A DNA stretch of 52,118 bases from Halobacteriales archaeon SW_8_68_21 (GTDB taxonomy: Archaea; Halobacteriota; Halobacteria; Halobacteriales; Haloferacaceae), in assembly GCA_003023405.1 (NCBI GenBank), contig PXST01000035.1, positions 1 through 52,118 of the forward strand. The letters are read 5' to 3'. The position numbers and the translations under genes are program-made. Shown here one piece after another: positions 3,292 to 52,118 of the stretch (the stretch's first letter is position 1; each line of letters begins with the position of its first letter). The notes beneath the pieces are model-generated. The model did not search any database, was not told where the DNA came from, and worked only from the letters and a program-made list of their open reading frames with translations.

Positions 3292-3348
3292 ATGGCCGTC
3301 GGAACGGGCGCGCGGGGCTTATCACTCCCGCCGGCGAATCCCCGCCCG

Positions 3349-4245
3349 ATGGCACCCGCCGAGGACGACATCTCGATCGACGAAAAGCGCGTGTACGCAG
3401 GCAGCGCCGGCCGCACCGACGCCTACGTCGCGACTGGGACCGGGATCGTCCGCGTCTCGCTGTCGGCCGACAAGGTCGGCGCGTTCGACATGGTCGCCCG
3501 CAACCCCGCCCGCGACGTCACCGTCCTCGCGCGCGACGAGCCGACGGCCCTCGTCGCTGCGGCCACACCCGACGGGCTCTCCGTCGCCGCAGTCGGCGAG
3601 GACCCGGAATTCGAATCGGTCGACGCCGCCCCCGCGGTCGCGGTGGGACCGACTGGGGGTCGTGACGGCGCTCGGGACGGTTCGCTCCTCGTCGCGCGCG
3701 AGGACGGCGCGATCGAGCGCGTCGCGTTCGCGGACGGCGGGACGGCGGTCGCGTCGACGGCGCGGCTCGGCTCCGTCGCGGACCCGCGAGCGGTCGACGG
3801 CGCGCTCGTCGCGGCCGCCGACGGCGTGTACCGCGTCGCGGGCGGCGAGATCGAGGACGTCGGCCTCGACGCGGCGCGCGACGTGACCGGAGCCGGGATG
3901 CCGCTGGCGGCGACCGGCGCGGGACTCTACTGGCTCGGCAACGGCTGGATGGCGGCTCGTAAGGGAGCGGCCGAGGCGGTCGCGGCCGACGGCGACGGCC
4001 ACGCGACGGCGGTCGTCGAGGGGGAGTTGCTCGTTCACTCGGGAGCGGGCGAGTGGGACGACGAGACGTGGGAGCCGACCGACCTGCCGGTCGACGAGGA
4101 GCCGGTCGCGCTCGGTTACGGCCCCGGCGTCTCGGTCGCGGTCACCGCCGCGGGGACGCTCTGTGTCGACGCCGGCGGCGGCTGGCGACATCAGGTGGTC
4201 GGTGTCCGGGACGTCGCTGGCGTCGCGCTCGCCGCCGTGGAATGA
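3349..4245 (+). CDS. HVO_0234-type beta-propeller protein
   Basis: The 298-residue protein starts MAPAEDDISIDEKRVYAGSA and consists of short repeating beta-rich blades, with recurring G-x-G/ADG turns such as ATGTGIVRVSLS and AADGVYRVAGGE. This resembles the haloarchaeal family typified by HVO_0234, which is predicted to fold as a beta-propeller. No catalytic motif is visible and the role is unknown. I prefer the ATG at 3349 to the first codon of the longer frame at 3292, because the extra 19 residues overlap the divergent neighbour's start. It ends before a repeat element and faces the M29-like gene. Confidence 0.75.
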   Translation: MAPAEDDISIDEKRVYAGSAGRTDAYVATGTGIVRVSLSADKVGAFDMVARNPARDVTVLARDEPTALVAAATPDGLSVAAVGEDPEFESVDAAPAVAVGPTGGRDGARDGSLLVAREDGAIERVAFADGGTAVASTARLGSVADPRAVDGALVAAADGVYRVAGGEIEDVGLDAARDVTGAGMPLAATGAGLYWLGNGWMAARKGAAEAVAADGDGHATAVVEGELLVHSGAGEWDDETWEPTDLPVDEEPVALGYGPGVSVAVTAAGTLCVDAGGGWRHQVVGVRDVAGVALAAVE

Positions 4246-4282: not shown

Positions 4283-4790
4283 AAGCGTTTATAAGTGGTT
4301 CCGAGCAGGTCAGTCGAATGCGTCCGAAGCCGCATGTCGTTTATTTATACCTACTTGACCGCGACGAACGCTACCGAAGCCCCGGTCGCTCGACTGGACG
4401 TAATTGCTTATAAACCGGTGATCGACACGGTCGTCTCCGAAGCCCCAGTTGCTCGGCCGTATTGCGTTGATTCTATCTATAAGTGAGTGATCGACACGAT
4501 CGTCTCCGAAGCCCCAGTCGCGACGGCTCGCGCGGCTTGTTGCGGTCCTCGTCGCTCGCTACGCTCGCTCCTGCGGCCCTTCCTGCGCCGTGCTTCGCCC
4601 TCGCGACTGCCCCTTCGAGTCCCACCCGACCGCAACCGCACAGCACCTCACGCCTCCCCAGCCTCGTCGCTCGCTCTGGGCTCCCTTCGGTCGCCCAGTC
4701 GCTCGCGACTCCCTCGCGCGGCGCTGCTTCGCTGCCGCCGCTGGCGGCCGCTCGCAGGCGCGCGCCACCGCTCTGCTGTCTCAGTGACCG
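4283..4790 (+). repeat. Dispersed repeat element, copy A
   Basis: This copy fills the gap between convergent genes. The left half has four TATA-like motifs (TTTATAAG at 4288, TTATTTATAC at 4341, CTTATAAACC at 4407, TCTATAAG at 4476), with GAAGCC-type boxes at 4326, 4375, 4438 and 4507 and the shared phrase TGATCGACACG. The right half is GC-rich with many small inverted repeats. It contains the family core, CCTCACGCCTCCCC then AGCCTCGTCG ending at 4669, a variable hairpin, and GACTCCCTCGCGCG at 4707-4720. No convincing protein is encoded. See copies at 11700, 39536 and 51655. Confidence 0.8.
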
Positions 4791-4814: not shown

Positions 4815-5765
4815 CTACGCGCTCGGTAGGTCGATCGCCTCGCCGTCGGCGTAGACGGTCGGGTTCCGAACGATCCCGTCGAGGTGGAGCGGCGCGTCGG
4901 TCTCGCCGCCGATCCCGGCGTCGTCGCCGATCGCGATGTGGACGGTGCCGCCGGCCTTCTCGTCTAAGAGGACTGAGCCGACCAGTTCGTCGACGCCCAC
5001 GTTTGTCCCGATACCGAGTTCCGCGAGGTTGTACGCGGCGTCGCCGACCTCCTCGGCGGCCGCCTCCACGTCGGCTCGGATCTCGTCGTCCGAGACGGAG
5101 GTGACGAAGCCGTCTTCGACCTCGAACCGGAGCTCTTGTCCCTCGTCGAGCAGGCCGTGCGGCATCATCGTCCCGTCGACGACGTAGGTGCCGGTCGCGG
5201 TCTCGGGCGCGACGAACACCTCGCCTGCGGGGAGGTTCGAGAAGTCGCCCGAGTCGCGGACCATCCCGGTGTCAGCGAGCCACTCGCGGTCGCCGATCCC
5301 GAACGTGATGTCGGTGCCGGCGGGCGCGGTGACGCGGATCTCGTCCGCGTCGCCGATCTGCCCGAGCACGTCGTCGCAGGCGGCCTCGATGGCGGCGTAG
5401 TCGGCGTCGAGACCGGTCGTGAACACGCTCTCAGTGACCCCCGGAAGCGTCGCGCCGCGCGCGCCGGCGTCGCAGGCCGCGCCGCGGGCGCGGGTGTGAC
5501 TCAGGCTCTTCGTCGTCGGTGCGAGAAAGATGTCCGCGTCGGCCATCGCGGCCGCGACCGGTGCCGGCGGCTCCGTCCCGTGCTGGTCGGCCGGCGGGTA
5601 CCGCAGGACCGTCGCGTCGTCTGTGACGGCGCTCGCGGCCGCGTAGAGCGCCTCGCCGATCGGCTCGCGCTCGTCGTCGGTGACGACGACGACGGACTCG
5701 TCGGCGGCGACGTTCAGGCACTGTTCGACCGCGGTCGACGCGCCATCGGAGAGGTCGGCTGTCAT
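4815..5765 (-). CDS. Aminopeptidase, M29-like (aminopeptidase T family)
   Basis: The 316-residue product matches archaeal leucyl aminopeptidase/aminopeptidase T relatives. Diagnostic stretches are LPAGEVFVAPETATGTYVVD, an extended beta region with LRFEVEDGFV, and the C-terminal GTVHIAIGDDAGIGG plus APLHLDGIVRNPTVYADG. M29 enzymes are metallo-aminopeptidases that remove N-terminal residues from peptides. The metal-binding set is only partly obvious here, so activity is inferred from family membership. I chose the ATG at 5763-5765 over one 13 codons upstream, because it begins MTADLSDGAS and leaves room for the divergent gap promoter. It converges on repeat copy A. Confidence 0.75.
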   Translation of the reverse strand: MTADLSDGASTAVEQCLNVAADESVVVVTDDEREPIGEALYAAASAVTDDATVLRYPPADQHGTEPPAPVAAAMADADIFLAPTTKSLSHTRARGAACDAGARGATLPGVTESVFTTGLDADYAAIEAACDDVLGQIGDADEIRVTAPAGTDITFGIGDREWLADTGMVRDSGDFSNLPAGEVFVAPETATGTYVVDGTMMPHGLLDEGQELRFEVEDGFVTSVSDDEIRADVEAAAEEVGDAAYNLAELGIGTNVGVDELVGSVLLDEKAGGTVHIAIGDDAGIGGETDAPLHLDGIVRNPTVYADGEAIDLPSA

Positions 5766-5918
5766 ACTCCCGTATCCGAACGGCCGGGCGTTAGGCCTTG
5801 TCATTGACGATTTTACTCTATTCCGTAATTGGATTATTTACGTCCGGTGGTGATCCGGGTCGAATTAACCGACCGCTTACTCGTGGGGTAGTTAATTTCA
5901 TTTTGGTAGTCTCGAAAA

Positions 5919-11699: not shown

Positions 11700-11935
11700 G
11701 GCCGTTTTTCCGGTCGGCGCGTGCCTCCGAGCGCCTTTTAAATGCGCGAGGAGCACCGCGCGAGGGAGTCGCTCACTCGGAGCGAAGCGGAGAGTGAGCG
11801 ACGAGGCTGGGGAGAAATGAGGCTGCGATCCTGTGCGGGGCTTCGAAGGTGTTGGTGGTTGGATCAATCGTAACGACGTATCGCCTCCCGGCCGGGGCTT
11901 CGGCGGTCGTGTCAATCAGGAGTTTATAAAGATCG
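11700..11935 (-). repeat. Dispersed repeat element, copy B
   Basis: Read on the minus strand, this copy has TTTATAAA at 11923-11930, the CCGAAGCCCCGGCCG box, a second CGAAGCCCC box, then CTCCCCAGCCTC at the core. A perfect hairpin follows, with arms at 11792-11802 and 11768-11778 (11 bp) and a 13-base loop TCCGCTTCGCTCC in the sense direction. GACTCCCTCGCGCG comes next, then a second hairpin around ATTTAAAAG. It lies between the convergent DUF5518-like and peroxiredoxin genes. Confidence 0.8.
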
Positions 11936-29542: not shown

Positions 29543-30754
29543 ATGAAGGCAATCAAGGACAGCGTCCACGGCCACGTCCGACTCGGCGACGTCGCCGCCG
29601 AACTGGTCGACACGCCAGCGTTCCAGCGGCTACGCCACATCAAACAGCTGTCCACGGTTCGGCTCGTCTACCCCTCCGCGAACCACACGCGGTTCGAACA
29701 CAGCCTCGGCGTCTACCACCTCGCGGGCCGCGCGGTCGAGGGGCTCTGCGTCGACAACGACACCGCGGCGCACGTCCACGCCGCGGCGATGCTCCACGAT
29801 GTCGGGCACGGCCCGTACGGCCACCAGACTGAGGGTATCATCCGGCGCGCGACCGGACGCGACCACGACGACGTGGGATGGCTCCTCACCGACGCGGACC
29901 GCGAGGTGTGTCAGGTCCTCGAACGCAACGGGCTAGACCCCGAACGCGTCGCCGCCCTGATCGACGGGGAGGGGGCGCTCGGGTCCCTCGTCTCGGGCGA
30001 ACTCGACGTGGACCGCATGGACTACCTCGTGCGCGACGCCCACCACACCGGCGTCCCGTACGGCACCGTCGACACCGGCCGGCTCGTCACCGAACTCCGG
30101 CTGGTCGACGGGAACGCTTCGGCGGAGTCCCAGGGCGACGCCGACCTCGTCTTGGACGAGGGGAACGTCGCCACCGCCGAGAGCCTCCTCGTCGCGCGCT
30201 CGCTGATGAACGCCGTCGTCTACCGCCACCACGTCTCCCGCGTCGCGGGCGCGATGCTGGAGCGCGCCTGCGAGCGGTACCTCGACCGGACGGACACCGA
30301 CATCGAGGCGTTCCGTCGGATGGCGGACCACGACCTCCTCGTCGAACTGCGCGACCGCGCCCTGGCGCTCGGCGAGCGTATCGAGCGGCGCGACCTCTAC
30401 AAGCGCGCCGTCTGGGCCGAACTCGACGAGGTCCCCGCGGGCACGGTCGACGCCGGTCGCGCAGAGGAGCGGGCGGCCGAGCGCGAGATCGCCGACGTCG
30501 TCGGGATCGACCGCGACGCGGTCGTCGTCGACATCCCCTCGCGGCCGGCGCTCAAGGAGTCCGGCTCGGCCGTCGTCGTCGACGGCGTCCCCCAGCGGCT
30601 GGAGGACGCCTCGGAGCTGGTGGCCGGTCTCCGGGCCGCGGGGCGTCGGCGCTGGACGCTCGGGGTCTACTGTCCGGCCGAACACGTCGACGCGGTCGCG
30701 ACCGCGGCGCGGGACGTGTTGGGGCTGCGCGCGGCGAACCGTCCCTCAGCTTGA
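29543..30754 (+). CDS. HD-domain phosphohydrolase, paralogue 1
   Basis: The 403-residue protein starts MKAIKDSVHGHVRLGDVAAE. Metal ligands are in NHTRFEHSLGVYHLAGRAVE (His53), AAMLHDVGHGPYGH (H85/D86) and SGELDVDRMDYLVRDAHHTG. These are the features of the dGTPase/SAMHD1-like HD superfamily, which hydrolyses (deoxy)nucleoside phosphates; substrate is unknown. The C-terminal half (about 240-400) is helical and ends in a beta region. It is strongly similar along its whole length to the product of 31367-32626, separated from it only by a UspA gene on the other strand. Confidence 0.9.
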   Translation: MKAIKDSVHGHVRLGDVAAELVDTPAFQRLRHIKQLSTVRLVYPSANHTRFEHSLGVYHLAGRAVEGLCVDNDTAAHVHAAAMLHDVGHGPYGHQTEGIIRRATGRDHDDVGWLLTDADREVCQVLERNGLDPERVAALIDGEGALGSLVSGELDVDRMDYLVRDAHHTGVPYGTVDTGRLVTELRLVDGNASAESQGDADLVLDEGNVATAESLLVARSLMNAVVYRHHVSRVAGAMLERACERYLDRTDTDIEAFRRMADHDLLVELRDRALALGERIERRDLYKRAVWAELDEVPAGTVDAGRAEERAAEREIADVVGIDRDAVVVDIPSRPALKESGSAVVVDGVPQRLEDASELVAGLRAAGRRRWTLGVYCPAEHVDAVATAARDVLGLRAANRPSA

Positions 30755-30833
30755 CGGGCGCGACCGACCCCCGTCTCCCCGCGTCCGCGGCCGCTCCCGA
30801 CCGCGTCTCCTCACTCCTCGTCCGCGGACGCTT

Positions 30834-31250
30834 TCACCCCGATCTCCTCTCCCCGTCCGGTCCCGGAACCGTCAGCACCGGACGGTCAGCGTTCAACACG
30901 AGCGCCTGCGTCGTGCTGCCGAAGACGGCCTTTCCGGTCGGACTCCGCTTCCGACCCGACACGCAGATCGCGTCGGCGTCGATGTCGGCCGCGGCCGCGA
31001 GCAGCTCGTCGGCGGGGTCGCCACTCGCCTCGTAGTGGACGCAGGTCATGCCGGCGTCTTCCAACACCTCCCGGGCGCGTCGCACGGTTCCGAGCTGGTG
31101 AACCGACGCCCCCTCCGGGTTGTCCCGGAAGACGTGACAGAGGTGCGCGGTCACCTCGTCGGCGGCGGCCGGGAGACCCGTCACCGCCTCCGCCTGTGCG
31201 GTCGCTCTCGCCTCGTCGTCGAGTCCGATGCCGAGCAACACGTCGTACAT
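30834..31250 (-). CDS. Universal stress protein UspA family
   Basis: The 138-residue protein starts MYDVLLGIGLDDEARATAQA and has the UspA fold: LCHVFRDNPEGASVHQLGTV, ADELLAAAADIDADAICVSG, and the C-terminal GKAVFGSTTQALVLNADRPV. The usual G-2x-G-9x-G-S/T ATP-loop appears as GRKRSPTGKAVFGSTTQAL. It is an adenine-nucleotide-binding stress protein of unspecified role. It sits alone, opposite to and between the two HD paralogues. Confidence 0.88.
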   Translation of the reverse strand: MYDVLLGIGLDDEARATAQAEAVTGLPAAADEVTAHLCHVFRDNPEGASVHQLGTVRRAREVLEDAGMTCVHYEASGDPADELLAAAADIDADAICVSGRKRSPTGKAVFGSTTQALVLNADRPVLTVPGPDGERRSG

Positions 31251-31366
31251 ACGCGACGCTTCGTCCGATCGGGGGATAAATCACACCGCCGATTCGTGGC
31301 TCGCGGTCCCGGCTCGCGGCCGGCGAAAACTCAGACCTTTTAGCCGACGCCGCCGAAAGCGAACGC

Positions 31367-32626
31367 ATGATCACGGTCAAGGACACCGTCCACGACCACA
31401 TCGAGATCGACGGGGTCGCCGCCGACCTCGTCGACACCCCCGCCGTTCAGCGGCTCCGCCACGTGAAACAGCTCGGGACGGTTCAGCTCGTCTACCCCTC
31501 CGCGAACCACACACGGTTCGAACACAGCCTCGGCGTCTACCACCTCGCAAGCCGCGCGCTCGACCACCTCGGGATCGAGGGGAAACGCGCCGACCGCATC
31601 GAGGCGGCGGCGATGCTCCACGACACCGGCCACGGCCCGTTCAGCCACAACCTCGAATCGCTCACGCACCGCCGCACCGGGAAGTATCACGACGACGTCG
31701 GCGAACTGCTCGCGACCGGCGCGGTCGGCGAGGTCCTGCGCGACCACGGCCTCGACCCGGACCGGATCGCCGCGATCGTCGCCGGCGAGGGACCGTACGC
31801 CGGCCTCGTCTCGGGCGAACTGGACGTGGACCGAATGGATTACCTCGTGCGCGACGCCTACCACACGGGCGTCCCGTACGGCACCATCGACACCGAGCGG
31901 TTCGTCCGCGAGCTGACGTTCGTCGAGCGGAACGACATCCCGGACGGGGACGGGTCGGACCGCGACGGCCCCCAGCTCGTCTTGGACGAGGGGAACGTCC
32001 AGACCGCGGAGAGCCTGCTGCTCGCTCGGGCGCTGATGAACCCGGTCGTCTACACCCACCACGTGGCGCGCATCTCGAAGGCAATGTTGCGCCGGGCGGC
32101 GAGCGACCTCCTCGACGCGACCGCGACGACCGCGGCCGAGCTCCGACGGATGGACGACCACGACTTCCTCGCGGCGGTCCGCGACTGCTGCGAGACCGCC
32201 GAGCTCTCCCGGCGGTACGACGAGCGCGACCTCTACAAGCTGGCGGTGTGGGCCGAGTACGACGACGTTCCCGACCGGGTCCACGACGCGGACCACGCCG
32301 CGGAGGCGTCGCTCGAACGCGAGATCGCCGAGGAGGCGGGCGTCGCGCGCGACCACGTGATCTTGGATGTCCCGCCCGAGCCGACGATGCGGGAGTCGAC
32401 CGCGCGCGTCACCGTCAACGGCGAGATCCGTCGCTTGGAGCGGCAGTCGCCCTTGGTGTCGGCGCTCCGGACCGCACAACGGAACCAGTGGCGGCTCGGC
32501 GTGTACGCCCCGGAACCGGCGACCGACCGCGTCGGTCGGGCGGCCGGAGACGTTCTCAGGCTCGACTCCGACGCGCTGGTGACCGAGGTCCGCGGCGCGA
32601 TGCCGACGACGCTCGACGAGTTCTGA
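31367..32626 (+). CDS. HD-domain phosphohydrolase, paralogue 2
   Basis: The 419-residue protein starts MITVKDTVHDHIEIDGVAAD and carries the same metal motifs as its paralogue: NHTRFEHSLGVYHLASRALD, AAMLHDTGHGPFSHNLESL (H85/D86), SGELDVDRMDYLVRDAYHTG and VLDEGNVQTAESLLLARALM. It is predicted to hydrolyse nucleotide phosphoesters. The pair arose by duplication; the motifs are identical in both and divergence is largest in the last third. A TATA-like CCTTTTAGCC about 30 bases before the ATG suggests its own promoter. No defects were seen. Confidence 0.9.
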   Translation: MITVKDTVHDHIEIDGVAADLVDTPAVQRLRHVKQLGTVQLVYPSANHTRFEHSLGVYHLASRALDHLGIEGKRADRIEAAAMLHDTGHGPFSHNLESLTHRRTGKYHDDVGELLATGAVGEVLRDHGLDPDRIAAIVAGEGPYAGLVSGELDVDRMDYLVRDAYHTGVPYGTIDTERFVRELTFVERNDIPDGDGSDRDGPQLVLDEGNVQTAESLLLARALMNPVVYTHHVARISKAMLRRAASDLLDATATTAAELRRMDDHDFLAAVRDCCETAELSRRYDERDLYKLAVWAEYDDVPDRVHDADHAAEASLEREIAEEAGVARDHVILDVPPEPTMRESTARVTVNGEIRRLERQSPLVSALRTAQRNQWRLGVYAPEPATDRVGRAAGDVLRLDSDALVTEVRGAMPTTLDEF

Positions 32627-38809: not shown

Positions 38810-39505
38810 ATGGCCATTCCCTCGTTCGTGATCGGGATCGCGGGCGGGACGGGTGCCGGGAAGACGACTGTCTCCCGGCTCGTCACCCGCGATCTCGGCG
38901 ACAGCGTCACCCGGATCCCGCTCGACAACTACTACGAGGACCTCTCGCACCTCGACTTCGAGGAACGTCAGGCGGTCAACTACGACCACCCCTCGGCGTT
39001 CGAGTGGGAACTGCTCAGAGAACACCTCGAAGCCTTACTGGAGGGGCAGTCCGTCGAGATGCCCCAGTACGACTTCGAGATCCACAACCGGAAAGACGAG
39101 CGCGTCACCGTCGAGCCGACCGACGTCGTCGTGCTGGAGGGGATCTTGGCGCTGTACGACGAAGACATAAACGACATGATGGACCTCCGGCTGTTCGTCG
39201 AGACGGACGCCGACGTGCGTATCCTGCGCCGGATCCGGCGAGACGTGATCGACCGCGGCCGCGACCTAGAGGGCGTCATCGACCAGTACCTCTCGACGGT
39301 GAAGCCGATGCACGAGCAGTTCATCGAGCCGTCGAAGAAACACGCGGACGTGATCATCCCGGAGGGTGCGAACAGCGTCGCGGTGAACCTCCTCGAAGAG
39401 AAGCTCCGCGCCGAGGTCGAGGGCGACGCGGTCAGAAGCTGGGAGCGCGGGAGCCTTGAACAGGAACTCGGCGAGAAGCGCTCGCTCGACATCGACGACG
39501 ACTGA
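38810..39505 (+). CDS. udk: Uridine kinase
   Basis: The 231-residue protein has the P-loop GIAGGTGAGKTTVSRLVTRD (about 12-20), DNYYEDLSHLDFEERQAVNY (the base-binding DxYY motif), YDHPSAFEWELLREHLEALL, DVVVLEGILALYDEDINDMM and the lid RRIRRDVIDRGRDLEGVIDQ. It phosphorylates uridine and cytidine in pyrimidine salvage. Length is normal with an acidic C-terminus. It converges on repeat copy C and the XPB-like helicase. No defects were seen. Confidence 0.96.
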   Translation: MAIPSFVIGIAGGTGAGKTTVSRLVTRDLGDSVTRIPLDNYYEDLSHLDFEERQAVNYDHPSAFEWELLREHLEALLEGQSVEMPQYDFEIHNRKDERVTVEPTDVVVLEGILALYDEDINDMMDLRLFVETDADVRILRRIRRDVIDRGRDLEGVIDQYLSTVKPMHEQFIEPSKKHADVIIPEGANSVAVNLLEEKLRAEVEGDAVRSWERGSLEQELGEKRSLDIDDD

Positions 39506-39535
39506 ACGGATTCGAGGTCGATGCTTGATCGATGG

Positions 39536-39755
39536 GAGACGCCTCCGAAGCTCCCAGCCGCTCGCTTATAAACAGCTTACAGCAGATCGACGGCGAAGGC
39601 ATCCAAAGCCCCAGCCGCTCGCTTATAAATAGCTTACAGCAGATCGACGCCGAAGGCCTCCAAAGCCCCAGCCGCGCACAGCACCGCACCTCACGCCTCC
39701 CCAACCTCGTCGCTGGCGGCGGCAGCCGCCATCGCCGCCGCTCACCGCCGCCGAC
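39536..39755 (+). repeat. Dispersed repeat element, copy C (57-bp tandem units)
   Basis: Two 57-bp units, with CCAGCCGCTCGCTTATAAAYA and GCTTACAGCAGATCGACG, start around 39554 and 39611. A third partial unit runs into GCACAGCACCGCACCTCACG and CCTCCCCAACCTCGTCG (to 39712). A hairpin pairing GGCGGCGG with CCGCCGCC follows, with a GTCG/CGAC base and a two-base bulge. The 57-bp period equals 19 codons, so one frame gives a 19-residue peptide repeat; coding is doubtful. Its 3' edge overlaps the end of the helicase gene. Confidence 0.8.
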
Positions 39756-41124
39756 TTGCCACGCGCTCCTCCGCCGTCTCCGCGCTGACGAGCTCATAGA
39801 GGAGCGCCCGGCCGCCGTCGTCCTTCGGGCGGAGGACGCGGCCGAGCCGCTGAGTAAACTCGCGTTCGCTACCGGATCCGGAGAGGACGACCGCGACGTT
39901 CGCGTCGGGCACGTCGACGCCCTCGTCTAAGACGTTCGCGGCGACGACGTGCCCGTAGGTGCCGTCGCGGAAACGTTCGAGGATCTCGCGGCGCTCCTTC
40001 GCGCCCGTCTCGGCGGTGATCGCCGGCAGCAGGAACCGCTCCGAGAGCCGGTAGACGAGGTCGGTGTGGCCGGTGAACACGATGACGCGGTCGTCGCGAT
40101 GGCGGTCGAGGATCTCCGCCAGCTTCTCCACCTTCCGCTCGGCGTTCATCATGATCTCGCGGGCGTCCTGTTTCGCTAAGAGCGCCTCGCGGGCGGCCGG
40201 ATCGTTGCCGGAGCGCTTGACCAACTCCTGGTAGTCGCTCCCGCTCGTGAACGTGATCCCGGCGTCGCGGACGTACTCAACGAACGTGCCCTGCCGCTCG
40301 TCGTAGCGCTCGCGCTCCGCGTCGGTCAGCTCCACCTCGATCCGCCGGATGTCGTACGGGGCGAGGTGGTCGCCGGCGAGGTCGTCGACGTCAAGTGCGT
40401 AGGCGCGGTCGCCGACCAGCTCTGCGATCGCCTCGTGAGCGCCGTCGGGACGCTCGAAGGTGGCGGTGAGACCGAGCCGCGCGGGGGCCGCGAGCAGCCG
40501 CGCAGCGTCGCGGTACCCCTCGCCGCCGAGGTGGTGGACCTCGTCGAAGACGACGAACTCGAACGCGTCGCCGACGCCGTCCGCCTTGAGGTACGCCGAG
40601 TCGTACGTCGACACCGTGATCGCTTCCCGGCGCTGCTCGCCGCCGCCGAACCGGCCGATCGGAACGTCGAACTCGCGGTCCAGCTCCCGTTGCCACTGAT
40701 CCACGAGGTCGACGGTCGGGACGACGACGAGCGTCGGGACGCCGAGTTCGACCATCGCGCGGACCGCGATCACGGTCTTGCCCGCGCCGGTCGGCAGTTC
40801 GATCACCCCGTGGTCGCCCGCGTCGCGCCACGCGTTGAGCGCGTCGCGCTGGTACTCGCGGAGGTCGTAGTCCGTGGCGAGTGCGTCCGGCAGTCCGGCC
40901 GCCTCCGCGGCGCGGTCGCTCGCGTCGAGGACCCGGTCGTCGACGCCAACCCCGGCCACCCTGAGCGCCCGACGGAGTTCGACGTAGCGGTGCGCCGGCG
41001 CGCGTGCCGTGCCCGTTCGGGGATCCGTCTCGACGCCGGGCAGCGGCGGCAGCGCGTCGGCCGCGAGGTCGGCGTCCGCGTCGACCCGAATCGTGCCGTC
41101 CTCGTAGCTCAGCCGGACCTCCAT
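39742..41124 (-). CDS. XPB/Rad25-like DEAD/DEAH-box DNA helicase
   Basis: The 460-residue SF2 helicase has an N-terminal damage-recognition-like region (1-95), Walker A LPTGAGKTVIAVRAMVELGV, the DEVHHLGG box, motif III in RLGLTATFERPDGAH, DDRVIVFTGHTDLVYRLSER (motif IV region), ANVLDEGVDVPDANVAVVLS (motif V) and QRLGRVLRPKDDGGRALLYE (motif VI). It unwinds DNA in repair. Archaeal XPB is often followed by a Bax1/DUF790 nuclease gene; here repeat copy C follows instead. The last codons, RRR and stop, fall within the repeat's hairpin. Confidence 0.9.
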   Translation of the reverse strand: MEVRLSYEDGTIRVDADADLAADALPPLPGVETDPRTGTARAPAHRYVELRRALRVAGVGVDDRVLDASDRAAEAAGLPDALATDYDLREYQRDALNAWRDAGDHGVIELPTGAGKTVIAVRAMVELGVPTLVVVPTVDLVDQWQRELDREFDVPIGRFGGGEQRREAITVSTYDSAYLKADGVGDAFEFVVFDEVHHLGGEGYRDAARLLAAPARLGLTATFERPDGAHEAIAELVGDRAYALDVDDLAGDHLAPYDIRRIEVELTDAERERYDERQGTFVEYVRDAGITFTSGSDYQELVKRSGNDPAAREALLAKQDAREIMMNAERKVEKLAEILDRHRDDRVIVFTGHTDLVYRLSERFLLPAITAETGAKERREILERFRDGTYGHVVAANVLDEGVDVPDANVAVVLSGSGSEREFTQRLGRVLRPKDDGGRALLYELVSAETAEERVASRRR

Positions 41125-51600: not shown

Positions 51601-51654
51601 ATCGCGTATTTTGCCGGTCTCGACCGGTCGAACGTCTGGTCGCTATTGACGCGG

Positions 51655-52118
51655 TGAACTCCCCCGAATCTCCAGCCGCTCGGCTGTACGTGGTTATTTA
51701 TATATCAGTTATCGACACGGACACTCCCGGAGCCCTAGGCACTCGGCTGTGCGTGATTGCTTATAAATCGCGGACCGACACGGACACTCCCGAAGCCCCA
51801 GCCGCGAGGACGGCACACGCTCGCTGCGGTCCTCACTCGGTCGCTTGCGCTCCCTCGTTGCGGTCCTTACTTCGCCTGCGCCGTCCTCGCGGCTGCCCCT
51901 TCGAGTCCCACCCCTCCGGAAGACGTTCCTGCTCGCTCGCTCCGCTCACTGCGCGGGCTGCGACTTCCGTGCTCCCGCTCGCTTCGCTCGCGGGAACGCA
52001 CAGCACCGCCTCACGCCTCCCCAGCCTCGTCGTCGGTCCTCCGCTTCGCTTCGGACCGACGACTCCCTCGCGCGTGCTGGCTCGCGGTCGCTTGCGGCGA
52101 CCGCTCGCAGACGCGCAG
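51655..52118 (+). repeat. Dispersed repeat element, copy D (runs off the window)
   Basis: Two 63-bp units carry TATA-like TTATTTATATATC (51694) and CTTATAAATCG (51760), each followed by CGACACGGACACTCCC (51713 and 51776) and an AGCC-type box. A GC-rich section of small inverted repeats contains TGCCCCTTCGAGTCCCACCC (as in copy A). The core is CCTCACGCCTCCCC with AGCCTCGTCG. It carries a perfect hairpin (arms 52029-52039 and 52053-52063, 13-base loop TCCGCTTCGCTTC), GACTCCCTCGCGCG, and a second hairpin GCGGTCGC/GCGACCGC near 52085-52105. Confidence 0.82.

Follow-up and report, generated by a model that had tools for sequence, protein, structure and literature searches.

How can the arms of a hairpin be replaced and still pair, and what is the paired structure for? 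The question is raised by a 52,118-nucleotide stretch of DNA from Halobacteriales archaeon SW_8_68_21 (the window), which is one entire contig (C35) of a 2.44-Mb genome that is 80% complete. An earlier note, made from the sequence of this stretch, had described four copies (A to D) of a repeat with a core hairpin whose inner arms differ between copies B and D while every pair is kept, and had read this pattern as selection on structure. We found that the hairpin belongs to a larger intergenic mosaic, about 255 nt long and ancestral in the salt-loving archaea of the genus Halorubrum, whose hairpins stay paired while their sequences turn over.

Results

The core hairpin in the window

The core hairpin, HP2, consists in copy B of the arms GTCGCTCACTC and GAGTGAGCGAC around the loop TCCGCTTCGCTCC, and in copy D of the arms GTCGTCGGTCC and GGACCGACGAC around the loop TCCGCTTCGCTTC (Table 1). 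Both are perfect 11-bp stems with 13-base loops, as the earlier note had said, and their sequences bear out the nearly identical loops and the different inner arms; the folding z for the two hairpins is -3.1 to -3.9. The conservation claimed for the flanks holds in copies A, B and D, where CCCCAGCCTCGTCG and GACTCCCTCGCGCG are exact, but not throughout copy C, from which GACTCCCTCGCGCG is missing. Similarly, the GTCG/CGAC pairs attributed to both A and C are kept in A, where GTCGC/GCGAC surround an inner imperfect hairpin, but copy C has CCCCAACCTCGTCG and no CGAC partner. Copy C has decayed beside the gene for an XPB-like helicase (39742-41124, minus), at its 3' end. In the single-contig genome G022 the element in the orthologous gap is intact. 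Copy A sits between convergent genes (3292-4245, plus; 4815-5804, minus), copy D runs off the contig end, and parts have been lost in two of the four window copies (B and C).

Table 1. Copies of the element and their parts in the window
Feature	Position	Strand	Details
Copy A, upstream tandem units	4346..4498	+	about 60-69 nt, TATA-like box, GACACGGTCGTCTCCGAAGCCCCAGT; compare the fixed-position TTATAA boxes upstream of G022 elements
Copy A, full element	4499..4770	+	profile match 2-257 of 258, E 2.6e-44; covariance model 54.7 bits
Copy A, hairpins	HP1 about 4517-4608, HP2 4666-4709, HP3 about 4715-4767	+	
Copy B, without HP1 (HP2, HP3 and their linkers kept)	11711..11848	-	covariance model 97.4 bits, E 6.2e-16; profile positions 117-254 only
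Copy B, core hairpin HP2 (the noted hairpin)	11768-11802	-	11-bp stem, 13-base loop; folding
Copy C, two upstream units with TTATAA boxes	39500..39675	+	
Copy C, element truncated, without HP1 and with a broken HP2	39676..39735	+	covariance model 30.6 bits; profile 138-177
Copy D, upstream tandem units with TTTATA boxes	51631..51782	+	
Copy D, element cut by contig end	51783..52118	+	profile match 2-250, E 1.1e-52; covariance model 88.8 bits; folding
Copy D, hairpins	HP1 about 51799-51894; extra hairpin about 51969-51998; HP2 52029-52063; HP3 from about 52068	+	

Three further features of the window were noted. The other strand of the HP2 loop in copies B and D contains GCGAAGC, a DNA mini-hairpin of unusual stability. 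The purine-rich strand of the linkers has several GGGG runs, which could form quadruplexes in high KCl. At 29553-32089 two neighbouring genes contain long internal repeats that are 76-82% identical, a tandem duplication with no relation to the element.

Anatomy of the element

The whole unit far exceeds the 35-nt core: it is about 255 nt long and consists of three hairpins and conserved pyrimidine-rich linkers in the single polar order HP1-HP2-HP3. On its 5' side stand units of about 60 nt, from one to several in number; each contains a TTATAA box and terminates in GAACACCTCCAAAGCCCCAGCC. HP1 is a long hairpin of about 90 nt that begins CCGCGAGG; the linker sequences CTGCCCCTTYGAGTCCCRCCC and CACCTCACGCCTCCCCAGCCTC join it to the middle hairpin HP2 (GTC...GAC), which is followed by the linker TCCCTCGCGCG, HP3 and CACGCGCCACCGC. 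AT boxes (TTTATAA) flank the element at fixed places on both sides. Upstream, 130 of 166 copies have TTATAA no more than 60 nt before the last AAAGCCCCAG, in most cases at one fixed distance; downstream, it lies within 40 nt of the 3' end in 88 of 158 copies, against a background of 0.85% per 40 nt.

The upstream tandem units in the window are about 60-69 nt long and combine a TTATAA-like box with GCCCCAG, and their number varies, with 0-4 further units in G022; their spacing is close to that of archaeal histone wrapping. Extra perfect hairpins, such as ATCAGAACGCTCCGCGTTCTGAT, lie within HP1 or HP3 at L160, L170 and L161, as if hairpins bred hairpins. At L023, near 1501-1589, the HP2 loop is inverted, with GGAGCGAAGCGGA between AGTCGGTC and GATCGACT; it is the sole case among 214 distinct HP2 sequences and is possibly a trace of strand switching in a hairpin.

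Abundance and taxonomic spread

BLASTN detected the element in all 52 Halorubrum genomes searched and at 42 places in the source genome. Using a profile built from 110 copies, we counted 182 elements (196 profile rows merged) in 2.8 of the 3.02 Mb of G022, the last 222 kb being left out; nearly all are full length, with most matches spanning at least 240 of 258 positions, and the main chromosome of G022 carries about 200 copies. The exact core pattern occurs in at least 119 stretches of a public genome collection, and among the matches listed the named records come from Halorubrum, or from an archaeal MAG placed close to it, with the one exception of Halobellus captivus. Covariance-model matches extend to 12 of the 28 family genera sampled and to 7 of 48 order genera. 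A 15-nt linker with one mismatch allowed is found 54 times in genus g20 (control 2), mostly as CTCCCCAGCCTCGGC, and 27 and 28 times in g44, a genus of another family (controls 1 and 9), where CTCCCCAACCTCCTC is prominent. To judge by these matches, lineage-specific versions of the element probably exist across haloarchaea.

An Rfam search of the window returned tRNAs only, with no curated family matching the element, and the linker strings appear in no open-access paper that we found, subscription papers and supplements lying outside the search. We thus know of no named family for the repeat, and the three-hairpin Halorubrum repeat is apparently undescribed so far.

Genomic placement and positional conservation

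Genes called with our own caller leave 181 of the 182 G022 elements intergenic. The gaps that contain an element are convergent, divergent and tandem in 61, 23 and 92 cases, compared with 153, 439 and 914 for element-free gaps, an enrichment of convergent gaps (61/176 vs 153/1506) with an odds ratio of 4.7 (p 6.6e-16). The orientation of the elements in G022 is near random relative to genes. Two kinds of chromosomal order were considered and rejected for this genome: a replication-oriented, KOPS-like polarity, which the bias in the first 250 kb might suggest, yet orientation is random over 2.8 Mb (runs test z 0.43); and regular spacing, the coefficient of variation being 0.88 against 0.96 +/- 0.07 for random gaps (p 0.11). 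Separately, almost every element in G022:C1:1-257000 is on the minus strand; GC skew is positive over this stretch and switches near 257-300 kb, where there may be a replication origin or an inversion boundary.

Copies are concentrated on one replicon. All 41 exact linkers of a 3.7-Mb three-contig genome lie on its 2.7-Mb contig; the replicons of H. lacusprofundi measure 2,735,295, 525,943 and 431,338 bp (PMC5018182). A search of 72,556 plasmids yielded one real copy, between convergent genes on H. salinarum pHAR01, the matches in Natrinema and Salinigranum plasmids being to generic or low-complexity query stretches only. There was no exact-pattern match in IMG/VR and no match in phage records; on these grounds, and with one real plasmid copy, a viral or plasmid origin was rejected.

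When element flanks from many species were mapped onto G022, the orthologous gap contained an element at 105 of the 114 loci with both flanks syntenic, in the same orientation in 98, against a baseline of about 10% of gaps of at least 50 nt, although most of these loci were picked for an intact core and conservation is overestimated for decayed copies. The flanking genes at syntenic sites are typically 80-92% identical. The nine empty sites show no clean insertion boundary, their sequences being too diverged to define insertion ends.

Pairing is kept while arms are replaced

Across the three hairpins 7660 of 7746 pairs (98.9%) are Watson-Crick, and this pairing is maintained by 162 distinct arms in 306 distinct-context copies of HP1, 85 in 204 of HP2 and 46 in 218 of HP3. 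Covariation scored over 44 copies with diverse hairpins comes to 0.218; shuffled alignments give 0.080, none of 500 shuffles attains the observed value, and sliding the partners by 1-3 columns lowers the score to 0.037 or less. Seven of the 11 HP2 pairs vary on both sides. These copies were chosen for their different hairpins, so the score measures diversity with pairing, not rates. The statistical test of covariation, which the earlier note had proposed as a check, thus gave an excess.

Within a copy, 7.5 of 8 arm positions are paired, but the figure is 4.9 when 5' and 3' arms of different copies are cross-combined, so recombination inside the shared loop would yield unpaired hybrids. Such hybrids are rare, which means that they are removed or that exchange moves entire hairpins. 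HP2 is fully different in most orthologue pairs: at 90-97% flank identity it is identical in five of 35 pairs and differs by more than four positions or in length in the other 30. In addition, 40 pairs of perfect 8-bp arms differ by a single base pair, and 21 of 49 hairpins of 29 nt are unpaired at one or more positions, indicating that single compensated steps occur beside whole-module replacement; it is whole-module replacement that dominates at species distance. HP2 and HP3 are weakly linked and HP1 and HP3 unlinked, so the exchanged tracts are short. Of the earlier note's reading, the keeping of pairs is thus strongly borne out over hundreds of copies, but the compensatory pattern arises mostly from replacement of whole hairpins and not stepwise.

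Linker variants are near fixation within genomes

One linker position distinguishes TTCGAG from TTTGAG. The ratio of the two is 33:1 in the source genome, 64:4 in G015, 90:4 in G045 and 72:3 in G046, and it is 2:112 in G014, 6:134 in G036, 22:143 in G022 and 0:74 in G019; a few genomes are mixed, an example being G020 (9:11). Such near-fixation within genomes is the mark of concerted evolution and is predicted by ectopic gene conversion. Gene conversion is very efficient in Haloferax volcanii, where the tracts between chromosome copies are long (PMC8223754).

Mismatches and the choice between RNA and DNA

Isolated internal mismatches among the 7746 pairs comprise 19 G-T, 29 A-C and 35 others, with no preference for G-T (p 0.19). 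The acceptor stems of tRNAs from the same genus have 16 G-U and 3 A-C in 350 pairs, and the wobble rate is far lower in the element than in tRNA (p 2e-11), a comparison of rates that is approximate because the counting rules differ (flanked mismatches vs fixed positions), the G-T:A-C ratio being safer. On the likely transcribed strand in tandem contexts the counts are small, about one G-U type against five A-C type. An RNA made from one strand should tolerate G-U, so the lack of a wobble excess disfavours it, and that G-T and A-C are rare to the same degree agrees with hairpins in DNA, or with RNA hairpins needed on both strands. The earlier note had offered a structured RNA or a protein-recognised cruciform; the one-strand RNA loses ground and a DNA structure fits better. 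It is likely that the element acts as DNA rather than as one-strand RNA.

Discussion

We are highly confident that the copies make up one constrained, positionally conserved and concertedly evolving family. As to its function, our leading but tentative reading, which draws on an analogy with BIMEs (bacterial interspersed mosaic elements) in enterobacteria, is a DNA-level mosaic palindromic element that may serve as a gene-end boundary or topology site. The hairpins, as cruciforms or in single strands, would stand in GC-rich DNA between AT boxes and, with the invariant linkers, would form a recognition site; the candidate reader is probably a host chromosome-structuring or topology protein that would recognise both shape and linker sequence. 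A boundary role would be played at gene ends, chiefly between convergent genes. Ectopic gene conversion anchored in the linkers would swap hairpin modules between copies and selection would purge those with unpaired arms, with the result that new arms would come only ready-made as hairpins or by single compensated steps. This reading is favoured by the abundance of the element, its intergenic placement at ancestral positions, the keeping of pairs, the DNA-like mismatches, the concerted evolution, the near confinement to the main chromosome and the fixed distances of the AT boxes. Several observations count against it. Tandem gaps hold about half of the copies and divergent gaps 23, the positive supercoils that convergent transcription adds disfavour cruciforms, and the upstream TTATAA box at 39 nt could be a promoter. 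The long tracts of Haloferax volcanii (PMC8223754) also sit uneasily with weakly linked neighbouring hairpins. Selection and mere persistence are inseparable on a sampling of one genome per species.

It is somewhat unlikely that the element is a relic like a MITE or REP, an ancient palindromic repeat that is selfish or neutral and in which gene conversion would spread linkers and hairpins and hairpin-templated repair would keep the pairing without selection. Concerted evolution of the linkers, whole-hairpin replacement at orthologous sites, nested extra hairpins in HP1 and HP3 of some copies and the one copy with an inverted loop are all in keeping with such an origin, as is the preservation of palindromes in drifting REPs (PMC2817692). 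However, full-length copies occupy 92% of syntenic sites despite flanking-gene identities that are typically 80-92%, coding sequence is almost free of copies, plasmids and viral records are nearly devoid of them, and a genome with about 182 copies holds a single Y1 transposase, with no scaling between the two.

Two readings place the function in RNA. A bidirectional 3'-end element, in which hairpins in both convergent transcripts would end or protect mRNAs and both strands would have to pair, would account for the enrichment in convergent gaps and for G-T and A-C being equally rare, but we consider it quite unlikely: 65% of copies lie outside convergent gaps, the transcribed strand has no wobble excess in tandem contexts (on small numbers), the consensus is without a T-tract and orientation is independent of genes. 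It is very unlikely that the element is a structured non-coding RNA gene in many copies, with the TTATAA box before HP1 driving its transcription. The placing of that box and the strong covariation might speak for this, but neither strand has a wobble excess, a similar box is found just past the 3' end, the linkers are C/T-rich and there is no match to an Rfam family.

Of the known systems, BIMEs, which are made up of REPs (palindromic units), are the one that the element works most like. They are mosaics located between genes, with several palindromes and conserved motifs joining these, and exceed 100 copies per genome (PMC2817692). The Halorubrum element resembles BIMEs and REPs in being a set of high-copy intergenic palindromic units with conserved joining motifs, but it is archaeal, combines hypervariable arms (85 distinct in 204 HP2 copies) with nearly invariant linkers, occupies fixed positions genus-wide and is a polar three-hairpin unit with no alternating REPs. 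We found no REP-associated tyrosine transposase (RAYT) in step with copy number; G022 holds only a Y1 transposase of 133 aa, and RAYT mobilisation was rejected because this enzyme does not track copy number. Because the tests showed neither palindromes of conserved sequence nor units that alternate in orientation nor a RAYT partner, the element was not filed as a BIME or REP. Binding by gyrase, IHF or Pol I is a further trait of that class. GTAG- and CGTC-tagged REPs are short, high-copy, intergenic single hairpins of 20-40 bp with an unpaired tag, the CGTC type also occurring without a dedicated transposase, and haloarchaea are not reported in the paper that describes them (PMC3733652). CGTC is present at the HP2 stem base, but its GTC is paired with GAC in 44 of 44 aligned copies and the unit is about 255 nt long, so a CGTC-tagged REP was rejected. 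The main text of the RepRanger survey of archaeal REPs makes no mention of haloarchaea. MITEs and PATEs, for example those of Haloquadratum walsbyi, are likewise dispersed non-coding repeats in haloarchaea; our element would differ from them in that neither terminal inverted repeats nor target duplications are visible and it does not appear to move. Integron attC sites are folded DNA recognised by shape, and they too have arms that vary but pair; in contrast to them, the Halorubrum element has no integrase or cassettes and its chromosomal positions are fixed.

In prokaryotes, palindromic repeats scattered over the genome usually move fast and are particular to one species. The Halorubrum repeat is unlike these: its positions are ancestral genus-wide and nearly limited to the main chromosome, its paired arms turn over and its linkers are identical within a genome. 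It also carries a caution, that strong covariation among repeat copies can arise from cassette exchange and not from RNA. A larger idea, which we think unlikely, is that some 200 shape-read hairpin sites and a dedicated protein could make up a haloarchaeal chromosome-marking system for architecture, topology or replicon identity. Were this true, reading would concern shape and linkers only, which would leave the arms free to vary; the sites would be fixed on the main chromosome and nearly absent from secondary replicons, and related versions would be found in other haloarchaeal genera. As a natural experiment, the element bears on both selection for DNA secondary structure and ectopic gene conversion in polyploid archaea, and it offers about 200 candidate sites per genome for studying the bounds of genes or the organisation of the chromosome in haloarchaea.
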